Assembly (NCBI GenBank): GCA_005502775.1 | Contig: SCNI01000019.1 | Location: forward strand, 1-64,000 | Direction: 5' to 3' | Length of the DNA: 64,000 bases | Source of the DNA: Microbacteriaceae bacterium 3FA27C10 | GTDB lineage: Bacteria > Actinomycetota > Actinomycetes > Actinomycetales > Microbacteriaceae | Part shown: one piece after another, positions 8,588-60,831 of the stretch | How positions within the stretch are numbered: the stretch's first letter is position 1 | Layout of the letters: each line of letters begins with the position of its first letter | Translations under genes and position numbers: made by a program | Notes under the pieces: model-generated | The model's database searches: none | Seen by the model: the letters and a program-made list of their open reading frames with translations, nothing else | Told to the model about the DNA's origin: nothing

Positions 8588-9414
8588 CGCCCCGCCTCCG
8601 CTCCGGCCGGTGCGGCCAGTTCGGCGAGGATCTCGCGGGCGAGCAGCGACGACACCGCCCGTCGCCAGTCGGCGGCGCCGTGCGGATCGGTGAACCACGT
8701 CTCGAGGCGCTCGACGTCGGCACCGAGCGTCGCGGCATCCGGCAGCGCGGGGTACCTCAGCTGCTCGGGGTGCACCGTGGCGCCCGACACCGTGAGCGTG
8801 AACGCGCCGTCGGCGTCGAGCCGCCCCACGATCACGGCGCCCGAGCGCCCGAGTGGCGAGAGCGCGATCTTGCGGTAGCCGGTGCGCGCTTCGAGCGAAC
8901 CGAGCGGAACATGCAGCGACCGCAGTACGTCGCCGGCGCGCAGCCGGTTCGTGCCGTTGCCCGTCACGAACGCGGCGACCGGGATGCGTTCGTCGCTCCC
9001 GTCGGCACGCCAGACGAGCGCCTCGGCGTCGAGCGAGGAGAAGAGCGAGGTCATCGGCCCTGCCGGGAGCGAGGCCGAGATGTTGCCGCCGACGGTGGCC
9101 ACGTTCCATACCTTGAACGAGCCGAGCAGGGCGGTGCAGCACTGGAAGAACAGCGGATGCGCGGCCCAACCCCGATCGTCGGGCAGCGCCGCGAGCTCGG
9201 CGAGGGTGCAGGTGGAGGCCACCTCGAGGCCGTCGGGCCTGACCGTGAGCGAGGGCCACTCGAAGGTCATCAGGTCGACGAGGCCGGTGAGGTGGTCTTG
9301 CGTCTCCGAGAACAGCCACGAGCCGCCGGCGAGCGGCGCGACGGTTGCTCCGAGGGCGGTGAGGTCATCGCGATGACGGGCCGGGACGATGGTCGCGATG
9401 GTGTTGAGGTCCAC
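8584..9414 (-). CDS. Xanthine dehydrogenase-type hydroxylase, FAD-binding subunit
   Basis: A 276-aa FAD-binding (PCMH-type/CoxM) subunit that passes electrons from the Fe-S clusters to the acceptor. The flavin-binding segments are recognisable: APLAGGSWLFSE near residue 30 and the TVGGNISASLPAGPM segment near residue 105, followed by the CO_deh_flav_C domain. The GTG start at 9414 has GGAG about 8 nt upstream. Its stop overlaps the ATG of the Mo/Fe-S subunit (ATGA), so the two are translationally coupled and together give a complete enzyme. The 130-bp region upstream holds two palindromes that may be operators. Confidence 0.9.
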   Translation of the reverse strand: MDLNTIATIVPARHRDDLTALGATVAPLAGGSWLFSETQDHLTGLVDLMTFEWPSLTVRPDGLEVASTCTLAELAALPDDRGWAAHPLFFQCCTALLGSFKVWNVATVGGNISASLPAGPMTSLFSSLDAEALVWRADGSDERIPVAAFVTGNGTNRLRAGDVLRSLHVPLGSLEARTGYRKIALSPLGRSGAVIVGRLDADGAFTLTVSGATVHPEQLRYPALPDAATLGADVERLETWFTDPHGAADWRRAVSSLLAREILAELAAPAGAEAGR

Positions 9415-9449
9415 GTGGTGCTCCGTTCGGGGATGGTGCTCCGTTCAGT

Positions 9450-9466
9450 ACACATCAGCAATGTGT
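9450..9466. promoter_or_regulatory. Inverted repeat upstream of the xanthine dehydrogenase operon
   Basis: ACACAT and ATGTGT form a perfect 6-bp inverted repeat with a 5-nt centre, 36 bp upstream of the FAD-subunit start. It is a candidate binding site for a purine-responsive repressor; the regulator is not identified in this window. Confidence 0.4.
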
Positions 9467-9487
9467 CTGGCATGTAACGCCCGGCCG

Positions 9488-9501
9488 GGTTGTGCACAAC
9501 C
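9488..9501. promoter_or_regulatory. 14-bp perfect palindrome upstream of the xanthine dehydrogenase operon
   Basis: GGTTGTGCACAACC is perfectly self-complementary with no spacer. It lies between moaE and the FAD subunit gene, 74 bp upstream of the latter. With one extra base in the left arm the symmetry extends to GCCGG/CCGGC, so it could also form a hairpin that terminates moaE transcription. Confidence 0.4.
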
Positions 9502-9544
9502 GGCACCCTGCCCTCGACTGTGGAGGAGTCGTCCGATCACGGGC

Positions 9545-9994
9545 TCAGCCCAGCGACGCCACCCACTCCGAGCTGCCGTCGTCGAACGACTGCTCCTTCC
9601 AGATCTGCACCCGCTTCTTGATCTCGTCGACGAGTTCCGAGCACGCGGCGAAGGCCGCCCCCCGATGGGCCGACGCCACCGCGCAGGCGAGCGCCACGTC
9701 GCCCACGACGAGGTCGCCGGTGCGGTGCTCGACGGCGATCGTGACGGCCGGGTGCCGGGCGGCGATCTCGGCAGCGACCGCGCGCAGGGTCGCTTCGGCC
9801 TCCGGATGCGCGGTGTAGCCGAGCGCCGTCACCCCGCGGCCCTCGTCGTGGTCGCGCACCACCCCCGCGAAGGTCACCACGGCTCCCGCCGAGGCGCTCT
9901 CGACCGCCGCCGCGCAGGACTCGACGGTGATCGGCGACGCGGAGATCCGCGCCCGCACGACCCGTGCATCCTCGATGTCAGTCGCCTCTGACAT
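9545..9994 (-). CDS. moaE: Molybdopterin synthase catalytic subunit MoaE
   Basis: A 149-aa large subunit of molybdopterin synthase. It converts precursor Z (cPMP) to molybdopterin using sulfur from the MoaD C-terminus. Family motifs are seen: AGAVVTFAGVVRDHDEG, LGYTAHPEAE, HRTGDLVVGDVALACAVASAHRGAAFAACSELVDEIKKRVQIWKEQ, which contains the active-site lysines. I chose the ATG at 9994 because GGAGG lies 5 nt upstream, although an ATG at 10006 is in frame. It overlaps the end of moaB by 17 bp. It closes the minus-strand run moeA-moaC-moaB-moaE, with the xanthine dehydrogenase genes just downstream. Confidence 0.95.
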   Translation of the reverse strand: MSEATDIEDARVVRARISASPITVESCAAAVESASAGAVVTFAGVVRDHDEGRGVTALGYTAHPEAEATLRAVAAEIAARHPAVTIAVEHRTGDLVVGDVALACAVASAHRGAAFAACSELVDEIKKRVQIWKEQSFDDGSSEWVASLG

Positions 9995-10469
9995 GGTCGC
10001 CTCCATGGATCTGATCGAGAAGATGGTCGAGCACCGGGCCGAGCACGGCGAGTCCGTCGCGCACGCCGCCCTGCGAGCCCGGCAGGTTCACCACGAGCGT
10101 GCGCCCGGCCACCCCCGCGAGCCCGCGCGAGAGCAGCGCGAGCGGGGTGTTCGCGGCGCCGACCCGCCGGATCTCCTCGGCGATGCCGGGGATCTCGAAG
10201 TCGAGCACCGTCCGGGTCTGCTCGGGCGTGCGGTCGGTGGGCGAGGCACCGGTTCCGCCCGTCGTGACCACGAGGGCCGCGCCGGCCGCGACGGCCTCGC
10301 GGAGCCGGCCGCCCACGGGCTCGCCATCCGGAACCACCGCGATCTCGGCCGTCCAGCCGCGCTCGCCGAGCCAGGCGCGGATGACGGGGCCGGTCGTGTC
10401 GTCGTAGACCCCGGCCGCCGCCCGGCTCGAGGCGACCAGAACCACGGCGGAGTGTGCGACGGCGGTCAT
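9978..10469 (-). CDS. moaB: Molybdopterin adenylyltransferase/MoaB-Mog family protein
   Basis: A 163-aa MoCF_biosynth-domain protein of the MoaB/Mog family, which in Mog activates molybdopterin by adenylation before metal insertion. The signature VVTTGGTGASPTDRTPEQTRTVLD and the later NLPGSQGGVRDGLAVLGPVLDHLLDQ are characteristic. The start is set at the ATG at 10469, which overlaps the moaC stop in the usual ATGA manner; an in-frame ATG four codons upstream is possible. It works with MoeA encoded upstream in the same run. Whether it acts as Mog or as a non-catalytic MoaB cannot be told from sequence alone; the lack of a second mog here favours adenylyltransferase. Confidence 0.92.
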   Translation of the reverse strand: MTAVAHSAVVLVASSRAAAGVYDDTTGPVIRAWLGERGWTAEIAVVPDGEPVGGRLREAVAAGAALVVTTGGTGASPTDRTPEQTRTVLDFEIPGIAEEIRRVGAANTPLALLSRGLAGVAGRTLVVNLPGSQGGVRDGLAVLGPVLDHLLDQIHGGDHVRGD

Positions 10470-10945
10470 CCGCGCGTCCACTCGCCGCTCGCGCCACCCG
10501 ACTTCGAGAGCACCTCGAGGTCGGTGATGCGCGCGCCGCGGTCGACGGCCTTGATCATGTCGTACACGGTGAGAGCGGCGACGGATGCGGCGGTCAGCGC
10601 CTCCATCTCCACCCCGGTCACGCCCGTGGTCTTCACGGTCGTCACGATGCGCACGGTCGTCTCACCGGTGGTGAACTCGACGGTCACGCCCGAGATGGGC
10701 AGCGGGTGGCAGAGCGGGATGAGGGTGGAGGTCTGCTTCGCGGCCATGATGCCGGCCACCCGGGCCACCGCGAGGGCCTCGCCCTTCGGCAGCTCGCCGG
10801 CGACGAGCAGCGCGATCACGTCGGCGCGCGTGTGCAGCACGGCCTGGGCCGAGGCCACGCGCTTGGTGATCGCCTTGTCGCTCACGTCCACCATGTGGGC
10901 GGCGCCGTCGGGGAGCACGTGGGTGAGTTCGGAGCCGTCAGCCAT
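10466..10945 (-). CDS. moaC: Cyclic pyranopterin monophosphate synthase MoaC
   Basis: A 159-aa partner of MoaA that converts the MoaA product to cyclic pyranopterin monophosphate, the first committed step of molybdenum cofactor synthesis. The family is clear from MVDVSDKAITKRVASA, AGIMAAKQTSTLIPLCHPLPISGV, VEMEALTAASVAALTVYDMIKAVDRG and the C-terminal VLSKSGGASGEWTR. The ATG at 10945 has GGAGG 5 nt upstream and overlaps the end of moeA by 8 bp. The downstream moaB start overlaps its stop. Confidence 0.96.
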   Translation of the reverse strand: MADGSELTHVLPDGAAHMVDVSDKAITKRVASAQAVLHTRADVIALLVAGELPKGEALAVARVAGIMAAKQTSTLIPLCHPLPISGVTVEFTTGETTVRIVTTVKTTGVTGVEMEALTAASVAALTVYDMIKAVDRGARITDLEVLSKSGGASGEWTRG

Positions 10946-52378: not shown

Positions 52379-54733
52379 TCAGCGGGCGCGCTCCTCGTCG
52401 TCGGCGAGGTAGCGCTGCCATACCCAGGCCGAGACGCTCACGGCCGCGAAGGCCGCCGTCGCGATGCCGAGCGCGAGCAGGGCTCCACCGGTGCCCGCGG
52501 TGAGGGTGGGCACGAAGAGCATCGCGAGCGCCGTGAACGAGGCGATGGTGAGCAGGGTCCAGGTGGCCGGCGACCACTCGAGCAGGCTGCGGCCGGGGCT
52601 GCGGCCCACCGGCAGCAGCAGCGCCGAGCTCGCACCGAACGAGGCGAGCACCACCACGTGCAGCAGTTCGGCCAGGGCGGCGCCCCAGACGTCGCCCGAC
52701 GCCGGATCCACACCGAGTGCTCCCGAGACCAGCCATGCCACGGCGCCGAGCGCGAGCAGGCACAGGACCTGCACGGTGGCGAGGGTGCCGCGGGCGCTGC
52801 GTGCGGCGGTCTCCGCGACCACGAGTCCGGCCACCAGTCCGAAGACGAGCACGGGGTCGAGATCGGCGAGACGCGAGAACACCGCGAGGGCCGCCGAGAG
52901 CAGCAGGAGGGCGGGCCGGATGCGCGGGGCCGCGACCACGCCGAGCGTGACTTTCGCGACAGCCGCGGGAACGACCGTCGCCACCGCGTTCACGATGGCG
53001 AGCCCGGCCGCCACCGCCAGGAACAGACGCAGGTAGGCGGGCTGGCTCTCGACCGGCCCGGAGAGGGTCACGAGCGCCGCCGAGGCGAGCACGACCGCGA
53101 CCGTGGTGACGGCCGGACTGATGTGGATCTCCGGGGCCTCGTCGTATTCATGGCGGCTGCGATTGCGGCCGAGCAGCGACGCCAGCAGTCCGGCCCGTGC
53201 GCCGCCGCTCGGGGTCTCCCGGGGAGCGAGCTCGCGCACGGTGCCGGCGAGCAGCCGGGCCGGAAGGGCGATCCCCACCAGGGCGACGGCCCCGAGCACG
53301 AGCGCGAGCCACCAGAGGGCGCCGGCGCCGGTGCCGAAGGCGGGCTGCAGCGCCGCGGTGAAGCGGGTGGCGTCCGACCAGCTTCCGGGGGTGACCGGGC
53401 TGCCGCCGGCCGCGGGCGGGGCGGCCCCGCCGGGGGTCGACGGCGCCGACGGGCTGGACGGCTCCGCTCCGCTGCCCGGCGTCGAGCCGTCGCCCGTCGC
53501 CGGCGGGCCGGGTGCGGCGGGGTCGGAGCCGGCGGACGGGGAGGTGGGGGCGGTGGTGCCGGCCGGCGCCGTCGGGCCGGAAGGAGTGGCCGGCGCCGTG
53601 GCCGAGGCATCCTGGAACAGCATCGTCAGAGGGCCCGACTGCACACTCACGTTGCCCGCGGCATCCTGTTGCAGCACGGCGAGCGAATAGCCTCCCGCCG
53701 GCACGGCGGCCGCGACGCACGACCACGAGCTGTTGCTCACGGTGACCTGGCAGATCGTGTAGGCGCCGGCGAACACCGAGACGGTGGCGCCGTCCTCACC
53801 GGTGCCGCTGAAGGTCGAGCCCGAGGTGGGGAGCGTGGTGCCCGACCGCGGCGAGAGCAGCACGGGAGCCGCCGGCACCGTCACGTCGACGCGGATGGCG
53901 ACGGCGTCGCTCGCCGGCGACGCTCCGCTGCTCCACGAGGTGCTCTGGGTGGCCGAGACCAGGTAGTCGCCGTCGGTGATGCCGCCGCCCAGCGGGCACG
54001 ACCAGGCTCCGGAGGCGTCGGCCGTGCCGCTGCAGACGAAGGAGCCCGCCGTGGCCGTGACGGTGGCGCCGGCGAAGGCGGTTCCCTGAACGACGGCATT
54101 GGTGAGGGTTCCGCGCGGGCCGCCTGTCACCACCGGGGCGTTGAGCACGCGCACGGTGACCGAAGCCTCCTGCTGCGGCGAGCCGGAGACGAGCTGTACC
54201 GCGCGGATGACGGTCGAGGCCGAGCTCGCGAGCCCGGTCGTCGCACAGCTCCAGTCGCCTGACCCGCCGGGCGTGACGATGCACAGCGGCTCCGACGAGC
54301 CGCCGGCGAGCACCTGCACCGAGCTGCCGGGCTCTCCCGTGCCCGAGACGGTGACGGCGCCGGCGAGTTGCGCGCCGCCCGCGGGGGAGAGGATGACCGG
54401 GGCGGCGGGCTCGGTCGGCGGCGGCGTCGGGGAAGAGCCCCCCGGGTCTGTCGACGGTGCCGGTGCCGGTGCCGCGGGAGCCGTCGAGGGCGCTGGAGTC
54501 GGCGCGGGCGCGGCGGCGATGGGGGAGGCGCTCGCCGAAGCGGCGCCTGCGCCGCCCACCACGGCGAGGCCGCCCGCGAGTAGGGCGGCGGCAAAGAGGA
54601 GGGCCGCGACGAGCCGGACGGGAGAGGCGGATCGGGAGCCCGAGTCGGGCCCTGAGGTGTCGAGGGTTCGCCACTCGACGCCGTCGCCGACTCGCGACGG
54701 CGTTCGTTCCCACCCCTTGCGCGATCCCGACAC
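52379..54733 (-). CDS. Ig-like-domain protein with C-terminal multi-span membrane region
   Basis: A large envelope protein of about 784 aa and unknown function. Order: a short cytoplasmic part, a hydrophobic signal or anchor (VRLVAALLFAAALLAGGLAVVGGAGA), an Ala/Pro-rich linker, three bacterial Ig-like domains (from PAAPVILSPAGGAQLAGAVTVSGTGEPG, PVVTGGPRGTLTNAVVQGTA and PAAPVLLSPRSGTTLPTSG), each with a Cys pair near its end, a second Pro/Ser/Gly linker, and about 9-10 transmembrane helices in the last 330 residues. The start is uncertain: GTG at 54733 is used here; the frame is open to 54865, where it runs into an operator. It is divergent from a TetR gene. Confidence 0.75.
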   Translation of the reverse strand: MSGSRKGWERTPSRVGDGVEWRTLDTSGPDSGSRSASPVRLVAALLFAAALLAGGLAVVGGAGAASASASPIAAAPAPTPAPSTAPAAPAPAPSTDPGGSSPTPPPTEPAAPVILSPAGGAQLAGAVTVSGTGEPGSSVQVLAGGSSEPLCIVTPGGSGDWSCATTGLASSASTVIRAVQLVSGSPQQEASVTVRVLNAPVVTGGPRGTLTNAVVQGTAFAGATVTATAGSFVCSGTADASGAWSCPLGGGITDGDYLVSATQSTSWSSGASPASDAVAIRVDVTVPAAPVLLSPRSGTTLPTSGSTFSGTGEDGATVSVFAGAYTICQVTVSNSSWSCVAAAVPAGGYSLAVLQQDAAGNVSVQSGPLTMLFQDASATAPATPSGPTAPAGTTAPTSPSAGSDPAAPGPPATGDGSTPGSGAEPSSPSAPSTPGGAAPPAAGGSPVTPGSWSDATRFTAALQPAFGTGAGALWWLALVLGAVALVGIALPARLLAGTVRELAPRETPSGGARAGLLASLLGRNRSRHEYDEAPEIHISPAVTTVAVVLASAALVTLSGPVESQPAYLRLFLAVAAGLAIVNAVATVVPAAVAKVTLGVVAAPRIRPALLLLSAALAVFSRLADLDPVLVFGLVAGLVVAETAARSARGTLATVQVLCLLALGAVAWLVSGALGVDPASGDVWGAALAELLHVVVLASFGASSALLLPVGRSPGRSLLEWSPATWTLLTIASFTALAMLFVPTLTAGTGGALLALGIATAAFAAVSVSAWVWQRYLADDEERAR

Positions 54734-54848
54734 CTCCCACCATTTACGCCGATGCGCCGCGTTCCGCGCCACCCCCGCCCCGGCGTTTCGGATGAAATTC
54801 GGAGCCGGGCGTGTACAGATCGGCCCTGTTACGGCATACTGACGCAAC

Positions 54849-54864
54849 TGGGTCAGATGACCCA
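54849..54864. promoter_or_regulatory. TetR-type operator upstream of the glycoside operon
   Basis: TGGGTCAGATGACCCA: two perfect 7-bp arms around a 2-bp centre, 34 bp upstream of the TetR gene start and in the divergent region shared with the Ig-domain protein. Autoregulation by the adjacent TetR is the natural reading. Confidence 0.65.
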
Positions 54865-54897
54865 CTCCATCGTCAGACCAGGCACGCGAGGGGGAGC

Positions 54898-55575
54898 ATG
54901 GCGCGCATGCCGGTGGCCGAGCGCCGCAGCATTCTGCTCTCCGCCGCCTTCGCGGTCATCTCACGTCAGGGCGTGAGCGGCGCCACCACCCGGGCCATCG
55001 TCGACGAGGCGGGCATGAAGCTCGCGAGCTTCCACTACGCCTTCGAGTCGCGCGAGGAGCTGCTCGCCCAGCTCGTCGACGTGGTGGTCGGCAATCAAGA
55101 GGTGGTGCTCGCCCTCCCCGCCGAGGCCGGCACCGATCTCGAGCGTCTGCTCGAGCTGGGCCTGCTGCGCTACTTCGAGCAGGTGCGCGAGAACCCGCTG
55201 CGCGAACGCGCGATGTTCGAACTCACCCAGTACTCCATGCGCACGCCCTCGATGCAGGGCTTCGCCGAGCGCCAGTACGCCCGCTACCGCGAGCTGGCCG
55301 TGGCGTCGCTTCGGGAGGCCGCCGACCGCACCGGATGCTCGTGGCGGGTGCCCCTGCCCGAGCTCGCGGCCGACCTGGTGGCCCTCACCGACGGCATCAC
55401 GCTCGCGTGGCTCGCCGACGGCGACGACGGGCGTGCGCGCCGCACCATCGCCTTCGCCGCGCGCGCCCTGGCATCGGAGGGCGTGCATCCGCCCGCCGCC
55501 GCCCCGACAGACTCCACCTCACGCACCACCCTCACCGGCACCACCCCCACGACCCGCAGAGGAGAAGCGTCATGA
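54898..55575 (+). CDS. TetR-family transcriptional regulator of the glycoside operon
   Basis: A 225-aa regulator. The helix-turn-helix region is ERRSILLSAAFAVISRQGVSGATTRAIVDEAGMKLASFHYAFESREELLAQLVD (about 8-60), and the C-terminal TetR_C-like region follows. AGGGGGAG precedes the ATG at 54898. A perfect palindrome lies 34 bp upstream. It is the first gene of a five-gene operon joined by 4-bp overlaps (transporter, PLP enzyme, lactone oxidase) and a 3-bp gap (GH1), so its ligand is likely a metabolite of that pathway. Confidence 0.92.
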   Translation: MARMPVAERRSILLSAAFAVISRQGVSGATTRAIVDEAGMKLASFHYAFESREELLAQLVDVVVGNQEVVLALPAEAGTDLERLLELGLLRYFEQVRENPLRERAMFELTQYSMRTPSMQGFAERQYARYRELAVASLREAADRTGCSWRVPLPELAADLVALTDGITLAWLADGDDGRARRTIAFAARALASEGVHPPAAAPTDSTSRTTLTGTTPTTRRGEAS

Positions 55576-56840
55576 CGACAGAACGCGAGGAGGCCGCCCC
55601 GGGCGTGTTCTCGGAGCCCGTGCGCCGGGTCGGGGGGCTGTGGATCGCCCTGTTCGGCGCCTCGTGGCTCGGCATCTGGATGGCGCAGCTCACGCCGGTG
55701 CAGCTGCTGCTGCCGCTGCAGGTCGAGCAGCGATTGGGAGCGGCGAGCTGGACCGACAACGTGGTGGCGTTCGGCGTGATCTCGGCGATCGCCGGCGTCT
55801 TCGCCCTCGTGACCTTTCCGGTGACCGGCGCGCTCTCCGACCGCACCACCTCGCGCTTCGGCCGGCGCCGCCCCTGGATCGCGGGCGGGGCCGTGCTCTT
55901 CGCGCTCGCGCTCTTCCTCCTCGGCTTCCAGGTCGACCTGCTCGGCATCGGGGTGTTCTGGACCCTCGCGATCATCGGCTTCTGCGTGCTCTCCGCCGCC
56001 CTGACCGCCAGCATCTCCGACCAGGTGCCGGTCGACCAGCGCGGCTTCGTCTCGAGCTGGATCTCGGCCCCGCAGGCCGTCGGCCTCATCCTCGGCGTGC
56101 TGCTGGCCACGACGCTGTTCACCGGCCAGTTCCTGGGCTACACCGCGGTGGCCGTGCTCCTGCTGCTGCTCGTCGGACCGTTCTGCCTGTGGATGCCGGA
56201 TGCGCGCCTGCGCCCCGAGGAACGGCCGCCGCTCACCCTGCGCGCGCTCGTCGAGAGCATGTGGGTGAGTCCGCGCGCGCATCCGGACTTCGGCTGGACG
56301 CTGCTCAGCCGCATCCTCGTGAACATCGGCAACGCGCTCGGCACCACGCTGCTGCTCTACTTCCTGATGTACGGGCTGAACGACCCGACCGCCGAAGACG
56401 ATCTGCTCGTGCTCATCGTGATCTACACGATCTTCGTGGTGGTCGCCTCGATCAGCGCCGGGGCGCTCTCCGACAAGCTGCGCCGCCGCCGGGTGTTCGT
56501 GCTCGTCGCCGCCGTGCTGCAGGCCGTGGCGGCGCTGCTGCTCGCCTTCGTGCCCGACCTCACCGTCACGATGGTGGGCGCCGCCCTGCTCGGCCTCGGC
56601 TACGGCTGCTTCCTCTCGGTCGACCAGGCGCTCGCCACCCAGGTGCTGCCCGACCCCGCCTCCCGCGGAAAAGACCTCGGCATCATGAACATCGCCACGG
56701 CCGTGCCACAGGCGATCGCGCCGCTGCTCGGCGCCTTCGTGGTGGCCCTTCTCGGCGGCTTCCCCGCCCTGTTCCTGCTCTCGGCGATCTTCGGTTTCGC
56801 CGGAGCGTTCGCCGTCTCGCGCGTGAGGAGCGTCCGATGA
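55572..56840 (+). CDS. MFS transporter, glycoside/sucrose symporter-like (GPH/SLC45 type)
   Basis: A 422-aa transporter with 12 predicted transmembrane helices. The loop between helices 2 and 3 reads GALSDRTTSRFGRRRPWIAGG, the motif of GPH-type and SLC45/plant sucrose:H+ symporters, rather than that of drug exporters; the matching second-half motif is GALSDKLRRRRVFV. It therefore probably imports a sugar or glycoside. The ATG overlaps the TetR stop (ATGA), with GAGGAG 8 nt upstream. The downstream GH1 beta-glucosidase would hydrolyse the imported compound. Substrate inferred. Confidence 0.85.
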   Translation: MTTEREEAAPGVFSEPVRRVGGLWIALFGASWLGIWMAQLTPVQLLLPLQVEQRLGAASWTDNVVAFGVISAIAGVFALVTFPVTGALSDRTTSRFGRRRPWIAGGAVLFALALFLLGFQVDLLGIGVFWTLAIIGFCVLSAALTASISDQVPVDQRGFVSSWISAPQAVGLILGVLLATTLFTGQFLGYTAVAVLLLLLVGPFCLWMPDARLRPEERPPLTLRALVESMWVSPRAHPDFGWTLLSRILVNIGNALGTTLLLYFLMYGLNDPTAEDDLLVLIVIYTIFVVVASISAGALSDKLRRRRVFVLVAAVLQAVAALLLAFVPDLTVTMVGAALLGLGYGCFLSVDQALATQVLPDPASRGKDLGIMNIATAVPQAIAPLLGAFVVALLGGFPALFLLSAIFGFAGAFAVSRVRSVR

Positions 56841-58075
56841 CCCTCGACCTGTCCCGCACCCCCGCCAACCCCGGCGCCTGGCGCGACGGCCAGCGCTACT
56901 GGCGCGGCCTCACCGCGGCCACCGCCGACCGCGAGCCGCCCGTGGCCGTGATCGGCCTCGAGGCGCTCGTGCACAACGCCCGCGACATGCTCAGGCGGGC
57001 CGGGGGCATGCCGATCCGGGTGGCGAGCAAGTCCATCCGGGTGCGGGCGGTGCAGGATGCGGTGCTCGCGCTGCGAGGATACGCCGGCGTGCTCGCCTAC
57101 ACGCTGCCCGAGGCGCTCTGGCTGGCCGAGACCGTCACCGACGTGGTGGTGGGGTACCCCAGCGTCGACCGTGCCGCCATCCGCGCCCTCGCCGCCGACG
57201 AGAAGCTGGCGGCACGCGTGACGCTCATGATCGACTCCGTCGAGCACCTCGACCTCATCGACGCCGCCATCGCGCCCGGCGCGCGGCCGGCTCTGCGGGT
57301 GGCGATCGAGCTCGACGCCTCCTATACCGCCCCGGGTCTCGGCCGGCTCGGCGTCTGGCGTTCGCCGATCTCCACGGTCTCGCAGGCCGAGGCGCTCGCT
57401 CACGCCGTGGTCTCGCGCCCCGGCTTCGCGCTCGTGGGCATGATGGCCTACGAGTCGCAGATCGCGGGCGTCGGCAACCGCCCGGCGGGCAAGCCCGCGA
57501 TGGGTCGGGTGATCGACTGGATGCAGTCGCGCTCGGTCGCCGAGCTCGCCGAGCGGCGCGGCGCCGTGGTGGCCGCGGTGCGGCGGATCGCCGAGCTCGA
57601 GTTCGTGAACGGCGGGGGCACCGGCTCGCTCGAGAGCACGAGCGCCGACCCCTCGGTCACCGAGGTCGCGGCCGGCAGCGGGCTCTTCGGCGGGCACCTG
57701 TTCGACACCTACTCGCGCTTCGCCCCGGCGCCGGCGGCCGCGTTCGCGCTGGCGGTGGTGCGCAAGCCCCGGCCCGAGATGGCGACGCTCCTGGGCGGCG
57801 GCTGGGTCGCATCCGGGCCACCCGCCGCCGACCGGCTGCCCGAGATCGTGTGGCCCCGCAACACCAGGATGCAGGCGCGCGAGATGGCCGGCGAGGTGCA
57901 GACGCCGCTCTCGGGCCGCGGTGCTGCGGCACTGCGCACGGGCGACCGCGTGTGGCTCCGGCACACCAAGTCGGGCGAGCTCTCCGAGCACGTGAACGAG
58001 TTCTGCGTGGTCGAGAACGAGATGGTGATCGACGTGGTGCCGAGCTACCGCGGTGAGGGGAAGGCGTTCCTGTGA
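56837..58075 (+). CDS. PLP-dependent amino acid deaminase/aldolase (D-threonine aldolase-like, fold type III)
   Basis: A 412-aa enzyme with an alanine racemase-type TIM barrel. The PLP lysine is Lys65 in IRVASKSIRVRAV; LRVAIELDASY and LVGMMAYESQIAGVG follow, and EFVNGGGTGSLE is the phosphate-binding Gly-rich loop. The C-terminal domain ends HVNEFCVVENEMVIDVVPSYRGEG, where D-threonine aldolases and D-serine dehydratases bind metal (His and Cys visible). It would cleave or deaminate a beta-hydroxy-D-amino acid. Its ATG overlaps the transporter stop and its stop overlaps the oxidase GTG. Why it is paired with sugar genes is not clear. Confidence 0.85.
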   Translation: MTLDLSRTPANPGAWRDGQRYWRGLTAATADREPPVAVIGLEALVHNARDMLRRAGGMPIRVASKSIRVRAVQDAVLALRGYAGVLAYTLPEALWLAETVTDVVVGYPSVDRAAIRALAADEKLAARVTLMIDSVEHLDLIDAAIAPGARPALRVAIELDASYTAPGLGRLGVWRSPISTVSQAEALAHAVVSRPGFALVGMMAYESQIAGVGNRPAGKPAMGRVIDWMQSRSVAELAERRGAVVAAVRRIAELEFVNGGGTGSLESTSADPSVTEVAAGSGLFGGHLFDTYSRFAPAPAAAFALAVVRKPRPEMATLLGGGWVASGPPAADRLPEIVWPRNTRMQAREMAGEVQTPLSGRGAAALRTGDRVWLRHTKSGELSEHVNEFCVVENEMVIDVVPSYRGEGKAFL

Positions 58076-59385
58076 CGGCGGCGAACGGCGTGTGGCGCAA
58101 CTGGGCGCGCACCGAGACGGTCAAACCGGTGCGGGTCGAGCGGCCCGCCTCGATCGGGGCGGTGCAGCGGTCCGTGCGGGCCGCGGCGCGCAGCGGCCTG
58201 AGGGTGAAGGCGGTGGGCGCCGGCCACAGCTTCACCGGCATCGCCGTGGCCACCGGGGTGCTGCTCGAACTCGACGAGCTGAGCGGCATCGTGGCCGTCG
58301 ACCGTGAACGGATGCGCGTCACGCTCCTCGGCGGAACCCGCCTGTTCGAGCTTCCGCGGCTGCTGAAGCCGCACGGGCTCGCCATGGAGAACATGGGCGA
58401 CATCGACCGCCAGTCGATCTCGGGCGCCATCTCCACGGGCACCCACGGCACCGGCCGCGAGTTCGGCGGCATCTCCACGCAGGTGGTGGGTCTCACGCTC
58501 GTCGCGGCCGACGGCGAACTGCTCACGATCGACGAGAACCAGAACGCCGAGCTCCTTCCGGCGGCGGCCGTGGGGCTCGGGGCGCTGGGCATCATCGTGG
58601 AGGTCACCCTCCAGTGCGTGCCGGCCTTCGTGCTCGAGGCGGTCGAGCGGCCGTTGCCGTTGGCGGAGGTGATCGGCGATCTCGACGGGCACATCGGCGG
58701 CGCCGACCACTTCGAGTTCTACTGGTTCCCGGGCACCCGCACGGCCGTCACCAAGACGAACACGCGGGCCGCGGCATCCGTCGCCCGCCGGCCGCTCACC
58801 CGGCGCCAGGTCTTCGTCGACGACACCTTCCTGGCCAACGGCGTCTACCGGGTCACCTGCGCCGCCGGGGCCGTGGTGCCCGCGATCGTGCCGAGCGTCA
58901 ACGCGCTCGCCGAGCGGCTCTGGTCCAACCGCTCCTTCTCCGACCACTCGCACAAGGTGTTCACCACCAAGCGCACGGTGCGGTTCCGTGAGATGGAGTA
59001 CGCCGTGCCGGCGGCGGACGTGCCGGTCGTGCTCACCGAGATCGACGAACTGATCGAGTCGCGCGGCTGGAGGATCTCGTTCCCGATCGAGGTGCGCAAC
59101 GCCCGGGCTGACGATCTCTGGCTGTCGACCGCCTCCGGCCGCGAGAGCGGCTACATCGCCGTGCACCGCTACTTCCGCGAGAGCCACACGGAGTACTTCG
59201 AGGCCGTCGAGGAGATCATGGCCCGGCACGCCGGGCGTCCGCACTGGGGCAAGCTGCACACGCTCGACGCCGCCGCACTCGGCGCGCTCTACCCGCGGCA
59301 CGCCGACTTCGTGGCCCTGCGTGACAGACTCGACCCGGCGCGGATGTTCTCCAACGCCTACCTCGACCGAGTGCTGGGAGCCTGA
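58072..59385 (+). CDS. FAD-linked lactone oxidase (D-arabinono-1,4-lactone/L-gulonolactone oxidase family)
   Basis: A 437-aa flavoenzyme of the aldonolactone oxidoreductase (VAO) family. The FAD domain has VKAVGAGHSFTGIAVATG with His52, the position of covalent FAD attachment in relatives, and DRQSISGAISTGTHGTGREFGGIS. The ALO domain ends with the family hallmark HWGK (391-394), then LDPARMFSNAYL. It oxidises an aldono-1,4-lactone or sugar alcohol with oxygen or another acceptor. The GTG start overlaps the aldolase stop (GTGA); GH1 follows after 3 bp. No signal peptide is visible, so the enzyme is cytosolic. Confidence 0.88.
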   Translation: MTAANGVWRNWARTETVKPVRVERPASIGAVQRSVRAAARSGLRVKAVGAGHSFTGIAVATGVLLELDELSGIVAVDRERMRVTLLGGTRLFELPRLLKPHGLAMENMGDIDRQSISGAISTGTHGTGREFGGISTQVVGLTLVAADGELLTIDENQNAELLPAAAVGLGALGIIVEVTLQCVPAFVLEAVERPLPLAEVIGDLDGHIGGADHFEFYWFPGTRTAVTKTNTRAAASVARRPLTRRQVFVDDTFLANGVYRVTCAAGAVVPAIVPSVNALAERLWSNRSFSDHSHKVFTTKRTVRFREMEYAVPAADVPVVLTEIDELIESRGWRISFPIEVRNARADDLWLSTASGRESGYIAVHRYFRESHTEYFEAVEEIMARHAGRPHWGKLHTLDAAALGALYPRHADFVALRDRLDPARMFSNAYLDRVLGA

Positions 59386-59388
59386 ACC

Positions 59389-60831
59389 ATGCCCGCCATG
59401 TCTCCGGAGGAGCGCCGCGAGTTCGCGCGCGACCTCGGCGGCCGTCTGCCGGCAGGCTTCGTGCTCGGCGCCGCGACGAGCGCCTTCCAGATCGAGGGGG
59501 CCACCCACGAGGGAGGCCGCGGGGAGTCGGTGTGGGATGCCTTCACCACCCAGCCCGGCCGCATCCTCGACGGGTCGACGGCGGATCGCGCCACCGACCA
59601 CTTCCATCGCACGACCGAGGACGTGGCGCTGCTGCGCGACCTCGGCGTGGACTCCTACCGCTTCTCGTTCGCCTGGCCGCGGCTGCAGCCGGAGGGCAAG
59701 GGGGCGCTGCGGGCATCCGGGGTCGAGTTCTACGAGCGGCTGCTCGACCAGCTCGCCGCCGCCGGCGTCGACACGATGGCCACGCTCTTCCACTGGGACA
59801 CGCCGAACGAGCTGCGCGGGGGCTGGTTCGCGCGCGACACCGCGCTGCGCTTCGGAGACTTCGCGCACGCGATGGGCGAGCGCTTCGGCGACCGGATCGG
59901 ACGATGGGTCACCATCAACGAGCCGGCGACGGTGACGCTCGACGGCTACGCGCTCGGCGTGCACGCCCCGGGGGCGACGCGCCTGTTCAACTCGCTGCCG
60001 GCCGCGCACCACCAGCTGCTCGGCCACGGGCTCGCCGTGCAGGGACTGCGGGCGGCCGGCGTGCAGGGCGGGATCGGCATCGTCAACGTGCACTCGCCCG
60101 TCGTGCCGGCCACGGGATCGGAGGCGGATGCGGCCTTCGCCGAGCTGTTCGACCTGCTGCACAACCGCGTCTTCGCCGACCCGGTGCTGCTCGGTCACTA
60201 CCCGGCGCCGCCCGAGGGCTTCGAGGCGCTGTTCTCGGCGCTCGCCGAGGTCGACCCGGCCGACCTCGCGGTGATCTCCGAGAAGCTCGACTTCTACGGC
60301 CTCAACTACTACGCGCCGACGAAGATCGCGGCGGGCTCGGGCGGCAGCGCCACCCCTGACGGCTCCTCCGACGCGATGGCGTCACTGCCCTTCCATCTCG
60401 CTCCCTGGCCGGAGTTCCCGCGCACGGGCTTCGGCTGGCCGATCGCCCCCGAGTTCCTCGGCACCACCCTCGACGAGCTCGCCACCCGCTACGGTTCGCT
60501 GCTTCCGCCCGTGTTCATCACCGAGAACGGCGCGAGCTTCGCGGATGCGGTCGAGCTCGACCCCGAGACCGGTGAGCCCCACGTGCACGACGGCGCCCGC
60601 ATCGACTACCTGGCGGCCCACCTCGACGCCGCCGTGGGCGCGGTGACCGGCGGCGGCCCGGCCTCGGCCGTCTCGCTGCGCGGCTACTACGTCTGGTCGC
60701 TCCTGGACAACTGGGAGTGGGCCGCCGGTTTCACCCAGCGCTTCGGCCTCGTGCACGTCGACTTCGACGACTTCACCCGCACCCCCAAGGACTCCTACGC
60801 CTGGCTGCGCCTCGTCGCCGAATCGCGCTGA
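59389..60831 (+). CDS. Glycoside hydrolase family 1 beta-glucosidase
   Basis: A 480-aa retaining beta-glycosidase with a TIM barrel. The N-terminal signature FVLGAATSAFQIEGATHEGGRGESVWD is diagnostic; the acid/base is Glu178 in TINEPATV and the nucleophile Glu379 in ITENGAS. NYYAPTKI and WSLLDNWEWAAGFTQRFGLVHVDF complete the glucose subsite. No signal peptide, so it acts on imported glycosides, consistent with the GPH-like transporter in the same operon. The ATG follows the lactone oxidase stop by 3 bp. Aglycone preference cannot be read from the sequence. Confidence 0.95.
   Translation: MPAMSPEERREFARDLGGRLPAGFVLGAATSAFQIEGATHEGGRGESVWDAFTTQPGRILDGSTADRATDHFHRTTEDVALLRDLGVDSYRFSFAWPRLQPEGKGALRASGVEFYERLLDQLAAAGVDTMATLFHWDTPNELRGGWFARDTALRFGDFAHAMGERFGDRIGRWVTINEPATVTLDGYALGVHAPGATRLFNSLPAAHHQLLGHGLAVQGLRAAGVQGGIGIVNVHSPVVPATGSEADAAFAELFDLLHNRVFADPVLLGHYPAPPEGFEALFSALAEVDPADLAVISEKLDFYGLNYYAPTKIAAGSGGSATPDGSSDAMASLPFHLAPWPEFPRTGFGWPIAPEFLGTTLDELATRYGSLLPPVFITENGASFADAVELDPETGEPHVHDGARIDYLAAHLDAAVGAVTGGGPASAVSLRGYYVWSLLDNWEWAAGFTQRFGLVHVDFDDFTRTPKDSYAWLRLVAESR

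Follow-up and report, generated by a model that had tools for sequence, protein, structure and literature searches.

A probably TetR-controlled operon of Microbacteriaceae with a conserved PLP enzyme and flavin oxidase: a candidate route for the breakdown of sphingoid bases

Results

The window analysed in this work is the whole stretch of 64,000 nucleotides from contig SCNI01000019.1 of Microbacteriaceae bacterium 3FA27C10. Five consecutive genes in the window encode a TetR-family regulator, a major facilitator superfamily (MFS) transporter, a pyridoxal phosphate (PLP) enzyme, a flavin oxidase of the ALO type, and a glycoside hydrolase family 1 (GH1) enzyme. These genes form a real operon, and its conserved core is the PLP enzyme and the oxidase. 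The evidence leans towards a TetR-controlled operon that degrades or detoxifies sphingoid bases (sphinganine, sphingosine, and phytosphingosine), and 1-O-glucosylated forms would probably be included. Sphingoid bases are antimicrobial lipid backbones made by eukaryotes. The first-pass annotation of this window had placed the same five genes at the positions in Table 1, joined by 4-bp overlaps or a 3-bp gap. Three 4-bp overlaps and one 3-bp gap were found.

Conservation of the core pair

The PLP protein was used as the query to search named genomes and 66 loci were obtained. The closest loci are from named Herbiconiux species (76-87% identity in the PLP enzyme), which places the window in Herbiconiux or very close to it. 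The oxidase gene is located downstream of the PLP gene on the same strand in 64 of the 66 relatives, and both genes adjoin in all complete relatives. The two exceptions are L010, which is at a contig end, and L065, a contig of a metagenome-assembled genome (MAG) where the pair is divergent. The L065 contig is filed as Candidatus Melainabacteria and encodes an actinobacterial-type PLP/oxidase pair, probably through a binning error. TetR is present in 43 relatives, MFS adjoining the PLP gene in 47, and both in 39. In Microbacteriaceae and Williamsia, the pair is usually accompanied by TetR and MFS. Outside these groups it occurs mostly without TetR, MFS, and GH1, with its two genes either on the same strand or divergent. 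The pair is present without GH1, and often without TetR or MFS, in Gordonia, Actinoplanes, Tsukamurella, Mycobacterium, and Burkholderia. The earlier prediction of a single operon was borne out, with conservation of the first four genes in relatives.

The co-occurrence of both genes was examined in 395 genomes drawn evenly from Actinomycetia. The PLP enzyme is present in 198 genomes and the oxidase in 211. Both are present in 190 genomes, the PLP enzyme only in 8, the oxidase only in 21, and neither in 176 (odds ratio 199). Counted by genus, the corresponding numbers are 58, 4, 8, and 68 (p 5e-25), where the co-occurrence p-values here and below overstate independence as the sampled genomes are kin by descent. 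The link between both genes is not only one of synteny, since they are located far apart in many of the 190 genomes (families f24, f26, and f27).

Twelve oxidase loci were fetched from genomes without the PLP family of the window. In eleven of them, the oxidase gene adjoins that of a different D-threonine-aldolase-like enzyme, in the same or in opposite orientation. This replacement enzyme has the H-x-D metal motif of D-threonine aldolases (PAHVDPT) and is similar to the Filomicrobium D-threonine aldolase (7e-45). No aldolase-type gene was found near the oxidase loci of genus g53. A thirteenth oxidase locus, from genus g88, has a window-type PLP gene that is cut by the contig end. The partner of the oxidase in Proteobacteria is SphD (Pseudomonas) or a DSD1 enzyme (Ruegeria). 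That the oxidase has partners from three or more branches of the aldolase-fold superfamily is an argument for its product being the substrate of such an enzyme. A marine version of the module was also seen on the Ruegeria pomeroyi megaplasmid (L177, 2824-7607), in the order TetR, cytochrome c, oxidase, DSD1 PLP enzyme, and DUF819 protein.

Flavin oxidase

The oxidase consists of FAD_binding_4 and ALO domains and retains the GHSF histidine, E-x-R (IEVR), and HWGK motifs. It begins directly at the FAD domain, which leaves no space for an export signal. It is 37% identical to SphC of Pseudomonas aeruginosa over 435 aa (E 1e-82), and it passes the TIGR01679 cut-off at 413 bits, as SphC also does. 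In family f26 genomes, the oxidases of the pair share 47-52% identity with it (~410-450 bits). Its best solved relative is alditol oxidase. AldO of Streptomyces shares all three motifs and scores 151 bits against the window protein. In the oxidase tree, which is unrootable and from which no monophyly of SphC with the actinobacterial oxidases is claimed, AldO forms a separate branch of length 1.92.

The family names (PF04030 and TIGR01678) and the solved homologue would also agree with a sugar-lactone or alditol oxidation of the L-gulono- or D-arabinono-lactone type, as in ascorbate-like metabolism, where the PLP enzyme has a separate D-amino-acid function. The gene order of Mycobacterium riyadhense agrees with it as well, as an M28-family peptidase gene is located between the PLP and oxidase genes (L152, 9193-10398). 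This order resembles that of Rv1769-Rv1771 in M. tuberculosis. Against this explanation, the oxidase is almost always accompanied by an aldolase-fold enzyme from one of several lineages, which argues for one two-step pathway, and alditol oxidase occupies a separate branch. We regard it as the most improbable of the explanations considered. Aldonolactone oxidation, which the first-pass annotation had assigned to this enzyme, gives way to sphingosine metabolism as the best functional lead, from SphC/SphD and a ceramidase in the operon of some relatives.

Links to sphingosine metabolism

The sphBCD genes of P. aeruginosa encode a cytochrome c, an ALO-type oxidase, and a threonine-aldolase-like PLP enzyme, and they are induced by sphingosine through SphR (PMC11893366). 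The sphBC genes are required for sphingosine removal and for tolerance of, and growth with, sphingosine, sphinganine, and phytosphingosine (PMC11893366). A C1 oxidation followed by an aldol cleavage to glycine and an aldehyde was predicted in 2014 (PMC3900636). We have located the sphBCD-sphA-sphR locus on record NZ_CP070468.1 (L155). This record is labelled as a plasmid and carries sphBCD, sphR, pyrE, argB, spoT, dut, and coaBC; it looks like a chromosome piece deposited as a plasmid.

A neutral ceramidase gene (PF04734, E 1e-149) is located just downstream of the oxidase gene in three Williamsia loci and one Mycobacteriaceae MAG. In one Williamsia locus (L046), the ceramidase begins directly after the oxidase match. 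A strong neutral ceramidase is encoded in 34 genomes, of which 31 also encode the oxidase (p 1e-6) and 25 the PLP enzyme. SphR-like AraC regulators (33-39% identical) are located near the pair in Tsukamurella, just upstream, and in Burkholderia. Both window-type genes are present in Burkholderia arboris (45% and 41%), and the SphR-like AraC gene is nearby. The L046 locus also has an endonuclease/exonuclease/phosphatase-family gene after the ceramidase (9400-10602), from a superfamily that also holds bacterial sphingomyelinases.

Two gene neighbourhoods support glycine as a product. In Tsukamurella, gcvT is located two genes downstream of the oxidase gene. In family f24 (L102, L105, L112-L115, and L131), a PLP gene without oxidase has gcvT, gcvH-like, and sdaA (L-serine ammonia-lyase) genes nearby; the f24 neighbourhood counts as one lineage. 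In family f27 (L116, L117, and L133), the PLP gene is located near a serB-like gene. These neighbours together suggest glycine/serine metabolism. Genome G222 has a semialdehyde-dehydrogenase-like gene in divergent orientation to the PLP gene.

Related chemistry on another compound would be a different explanation for the pair, either with a different 2-amino-1,3-diol or in making a 3-hydroxy-D-amino acid, for example for a bacterial secondary metabolite. The wide distribution in soil actinobacteria and the departures of the PLP active site from D-threonine aldolases are on its side. The ceramidase in the operon and the SphR/sphingosine regulon of Pseudomonas point to sphingoid bases instead, and we consider the other compound unlikely.

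PLP enzyme

The odd member of the operon had been annotated as a D-threonine aldolase-like PLP enzyme, and the structural comparison agrees. The PLP protein has zero Pfam model matches and one NCBIfam match, the beta-hydroxyaspartate aldolase BhcC, at 45 bits against a cut-off of 690. Its AlphaFold model has a predicted local distance difference test (pLDDT) score of 90.6. The best PDB matches of the model are 7dib, 6qkb, and 4v15 (D-threonine aldolases and BhcC; Z 34-35). The next matches are D-threo-hydroxyaspartate dehydratase and D-serine dehydratase (Z 30-32), followed by alanine racemases (Z <=25). The alanine-racemase-like barrel and beta domain are present in the model (Z 35 to 7dib and 4v15 over ~350 residues).

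The PLP lysine is K65. The mechanism of the Alcaligenes D-threonine aldolase is defined by the metal ligands His347 and Asp349 and the base His193 (PMC4401734). In the window PLP family, the metal position is occupied by invariant H376 and K378 (H376-T-K378) and the base position by G211, as read from sequence motifs rather than a superposition. The designation of the enzyme as a D-threonine aldolase was not adopted, as the defining residues differ. SphD likewise departs from D-threonine aldolases at the metal and base positions. The window enzyme and SphD belong to the same superfamily (22% identity, E 4e-9), and SphD is nearer to an Eleftheria enzyme (43%). A direct SphD orthologue was rejected at 22% identity. 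The cleavage step is uncertain because the enzyme is so distant from SphD and is without Asp349 and His193. The enzyme may instead act by dehydration, or cleave without a metal.

Transporter and GH1 enzyme

The first-pass annotation had also reported a GRRRP motif in the transporter, and GRRRPW was found from residue 97. Its label of a glycoside-pentoside-hexuronide (GPH)-like transporter stood in part. The MFS protein passes the Pfam cut-off for MFS_2 (27 bits), whereas all GPH-specific models are below their cut-offs (TIGR00792 at 45 bits against the required 231). On these model scores, "GPH-like" is the most that can be said.

The GH1 enzyme retains the catalytic NEP and ENG motifs (INEPA from residue 176 and ITENGA from residue 377), and its TIGR03356 score of 471 bits is slightly below the cut-off of 478.5. 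GH1 is the least conserved member of the operon. It adjoins ALO in 30 of 64 loci and belongs to one Microbacteriaceae set (Herbiconiux, Subtercola, Cryobacterium, Glaciibacter, Compostimonas, and Diaminobutyricibacter). The relatives without GH1 mostly have an ATP-binding cassette (ABC) exporter and another TetR between ALO and LemA, as judged by eye, with no carbohydrate theme. A sugar pathway as the core was rejected on both grounds. The earlier proposal of a glycoside-oxidation pathway as the core was not supported, as the PLP-oxidase pair also recurs without GH1. The accompanying hint on the substrate of the PLP enzyme was half right. An amino-containing substrate is retained and glycosyl-amino acids are not, as the best lead is sphingosine.

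An amino-sugar route would account for the GPH-like MFS and the GH1 in the operon. GH1 would split a beta-glycoside to release an amino sugar or amino-alditol, which the oxidase would turn into a 2-amino-2-deoxyaldonic acid (e.g., D-glucosaminate), and the PLP enzyme would deaminate this acid as OngC of Pseudoalteromonas does. Alditol oxidase as the best solved relative of the oxidase also favours this route. It is nevertheless quite unlikely in our assessment. The window operon has no 2-keto-3-deoxygluconate kinase/aldolase or deacetylase gene, nor was one seen next to the pair. Neither GH1 nor MFS belongs to the core, and the ceramidase and SphC links would be left unexplained.

TetR regulator and its probable operator

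The perfect palindrome TGGGTCAGATGACCCA consists of the arms TGGGTCA and TGACCCA around GA and is located 33 bases ahead of the TetR start. The 64-kb window has no other match at <=2 mismatches, where 0.15 is expected. The relaxed consensus TGGG[TA]C[AG]NN[TC]G[AT]CCCA is present upstream of TetR in 37 of 43 loci with TetR, and four further TetR loci have a site <=2 mismatches from the strict pattern. The relaxed consensus is present in none of the 23 loci without TetR. This palindrome is very probably the TetR operator. TetR would bind TGGGTCAGATGACCCA and let go on ligand.

The strict form has one site in the own genome, so the regulation looks local, and a wider TetR regulon in this genome was rejected. 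Among 60 related genomes, single strict sites are present in 13, and 11 of these adjoin this TetR gene. In two genomes, the strict palindrome (L182, 1501-1516; L193, 1501-1516) has no copy of this TetR within 1.5 kb.

Features and flanks of the operon

The features are listed in Table 1. The operon is flanked downstream by LemA and HtpX genes and upstream by a divergent open reading frame (ORF) of 828 aa (52379-54865, minus strand), which is syntenic in most Microbacteriaceae loci. It is probably an Ig-like repeat surface protein, judged by eye. As the listed GTG start borders directly on the TetR operator, translation probably begins further into the ORF. Scans for promoters and terminators found no signal above chance level.

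Table 1 Features of the operon in the window.
Feature	Position	Strand	Basis
Probable TetR operator, perfect palindrome	54849-54864	none	Palindrome search, conservation upstream of TetR
TetR-family regulator, 225 aa	54898-55575	+	Pfam TetR_N and TetR_C_6
MFS transporter, 422 aa, GPH-like, GRRRP motif	55572-56840	+	MFS_1 115.6 bits, MFS_2 52.8 bits
Fold-type III PLP enzyme, 412 aa, D-threonine-aldolase-like	56837-58075	+	Structure matches, BhcC 45 bits
ALO/alditol-oxidase-type flavin oxidase, 437 aa, SphC-like	58072-59385	+	ALO 249 bits, FAD_binding_4
GH1 beta-glucosidase-like enzyme, 480 aa, accessory gene	59389-60831	+	Glyco_hydro_1 430 bits

Discussion

A sphingoid base is a 2-amino-1,3-diol whose C1 primary alcohol is beside a substituted C2, as in an alditol. 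In the proposed pathway, the MFS protein would move the compound and GH1 would take glucose off O-1. A role for GH1 would be plausible, since glucose is attached to O-1 in plant glucosylceramides and this group must be free for the C1 oxidation. The flavin oxidase would then oxidise C1, now a free alcohol, to the acid, much as alditol oxidase acts on primary alcohols, and the (2S,3R) 2-amino-1,3-diol would become a (2R,3R)-2-amino-3-hydroxy fatty acid, a homologue of D-allo-threonine. C2 would become D (2R) because the new carboxylate occupies the place of the serine CH2OH. Fold-type III aldolases are D-specific, and from established stereochemistry a D-amino acid as the product of C1 oxidation would fit this fold. 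The PLP enzyme would finally cleave the 3-hydroxy-D-amino acid into glycine and a fatty aldehyde.

Several points weigh against sphingoid bases as the substrate. The PLP enzyme is without two of the residues that define D-threonine aldolases. The MFS family and the GH1 enzyme both hint at sugars. Given how widespread the pair is, its substrate may be a commoner compound, and the M. tuberculosis gene at the oxidase position is described as an L-gulono-1,4-lactone dehydrogenase. The ceramidase adjacency is restricted to Mycobacteriales, and no neutral ceramidase was found in a search of the own genome that was positive in other genomes. P. aeruginosa did not require sphD to grow with sphingosine, and no product of SphBC-dependent sphingosine metabolism has yet been identified (PMC11893366).

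A wider reading is tentative, and we put it slightly short of an even chance. Actinobacteria would cleave sphingoid bases completely, to glycine and fatty aldehyde, without a kinase or sphingosine-1-phosphate lyase, by a cytosolic flavin oxidase acting on C1 and a D-threonine-aldolase-fold enzyme with an altered metal site, in about half of Actinomycetia, and some Microbacteriaceae would add a GH1 that deglucosylates plant glucosyl-sphingoid bases. If true, many fold-type III D-amino-acid aldolases would gain a natural substrate. The physiological role of D-threonine aldolases has been described as "still largely unknown" (PMC4401734). The SphC-like oxidase with its varied aldolase-fold partners offers a testable answer for both the SphBC product and the D-threonine aldolase role, namely a C1-oxidised sphingoid acid. 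Searches of the literature on Rv1769/Rv1771, the gulono-lactone enzyme, and actinobacterial sphingosine catabolism yielded no description of this operon.

Comparison with known systems

The operon GH1 shares its family and catalytic motifs with GH1 beta-glucosidases, among them the cytosolic human GBA3-type enzymes, and its substrates may include glucosyl-sphingoid bases. The OngC D-glucosaminate deaminase of the Pseudoalteromonas ong cluster, compared by description and not by sequence, is alike in PLP superfamily and in its 2-amino-3-hydroxy acid substrate, whereas the content of its cluster differs (deacetylase, RidA, and KdgK). D-threonine aldolases and BhcC share the overall fold, the PLP lysine, and the GGGTGS phosphate motif with the window PLP enzyme. 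They differ from it in sequence (19-22% identity) and at the positions of Asp349 and His193 of the Alcaligenes enzyme, which are K378 and G211 in the window enzyme.

The closest parallel is the Pseudomonas sph module. Both systems have an ALO-type oxidase (37%) next to a fold-type III PLP enzyme of the alanine-racemase/threonine-aldolase type, with a dedicated regulator and a transport protein. A cytochrome c partner is present in Pseudomonas (SphB), Ruegeria, and Yoonia, and the window operon has none. SphC is exported by the twin-arginine translocation (Tat) system and SphB is a periplasmic cytochrome c (PMC11893366). The PLP enzyme of the window is of another branch (22%), TetR takes the place of AraC, MFS takes the place of the porin, and GH1 is added. 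On this comparison, the window operon works like SphBCD and is not SphBCD. We favour, with some reserve, a variant of the Sph module whose PLP enzyme is from a different branch, which is without a cytochrome and under TetR control, and to which GH1 is an optional addition.

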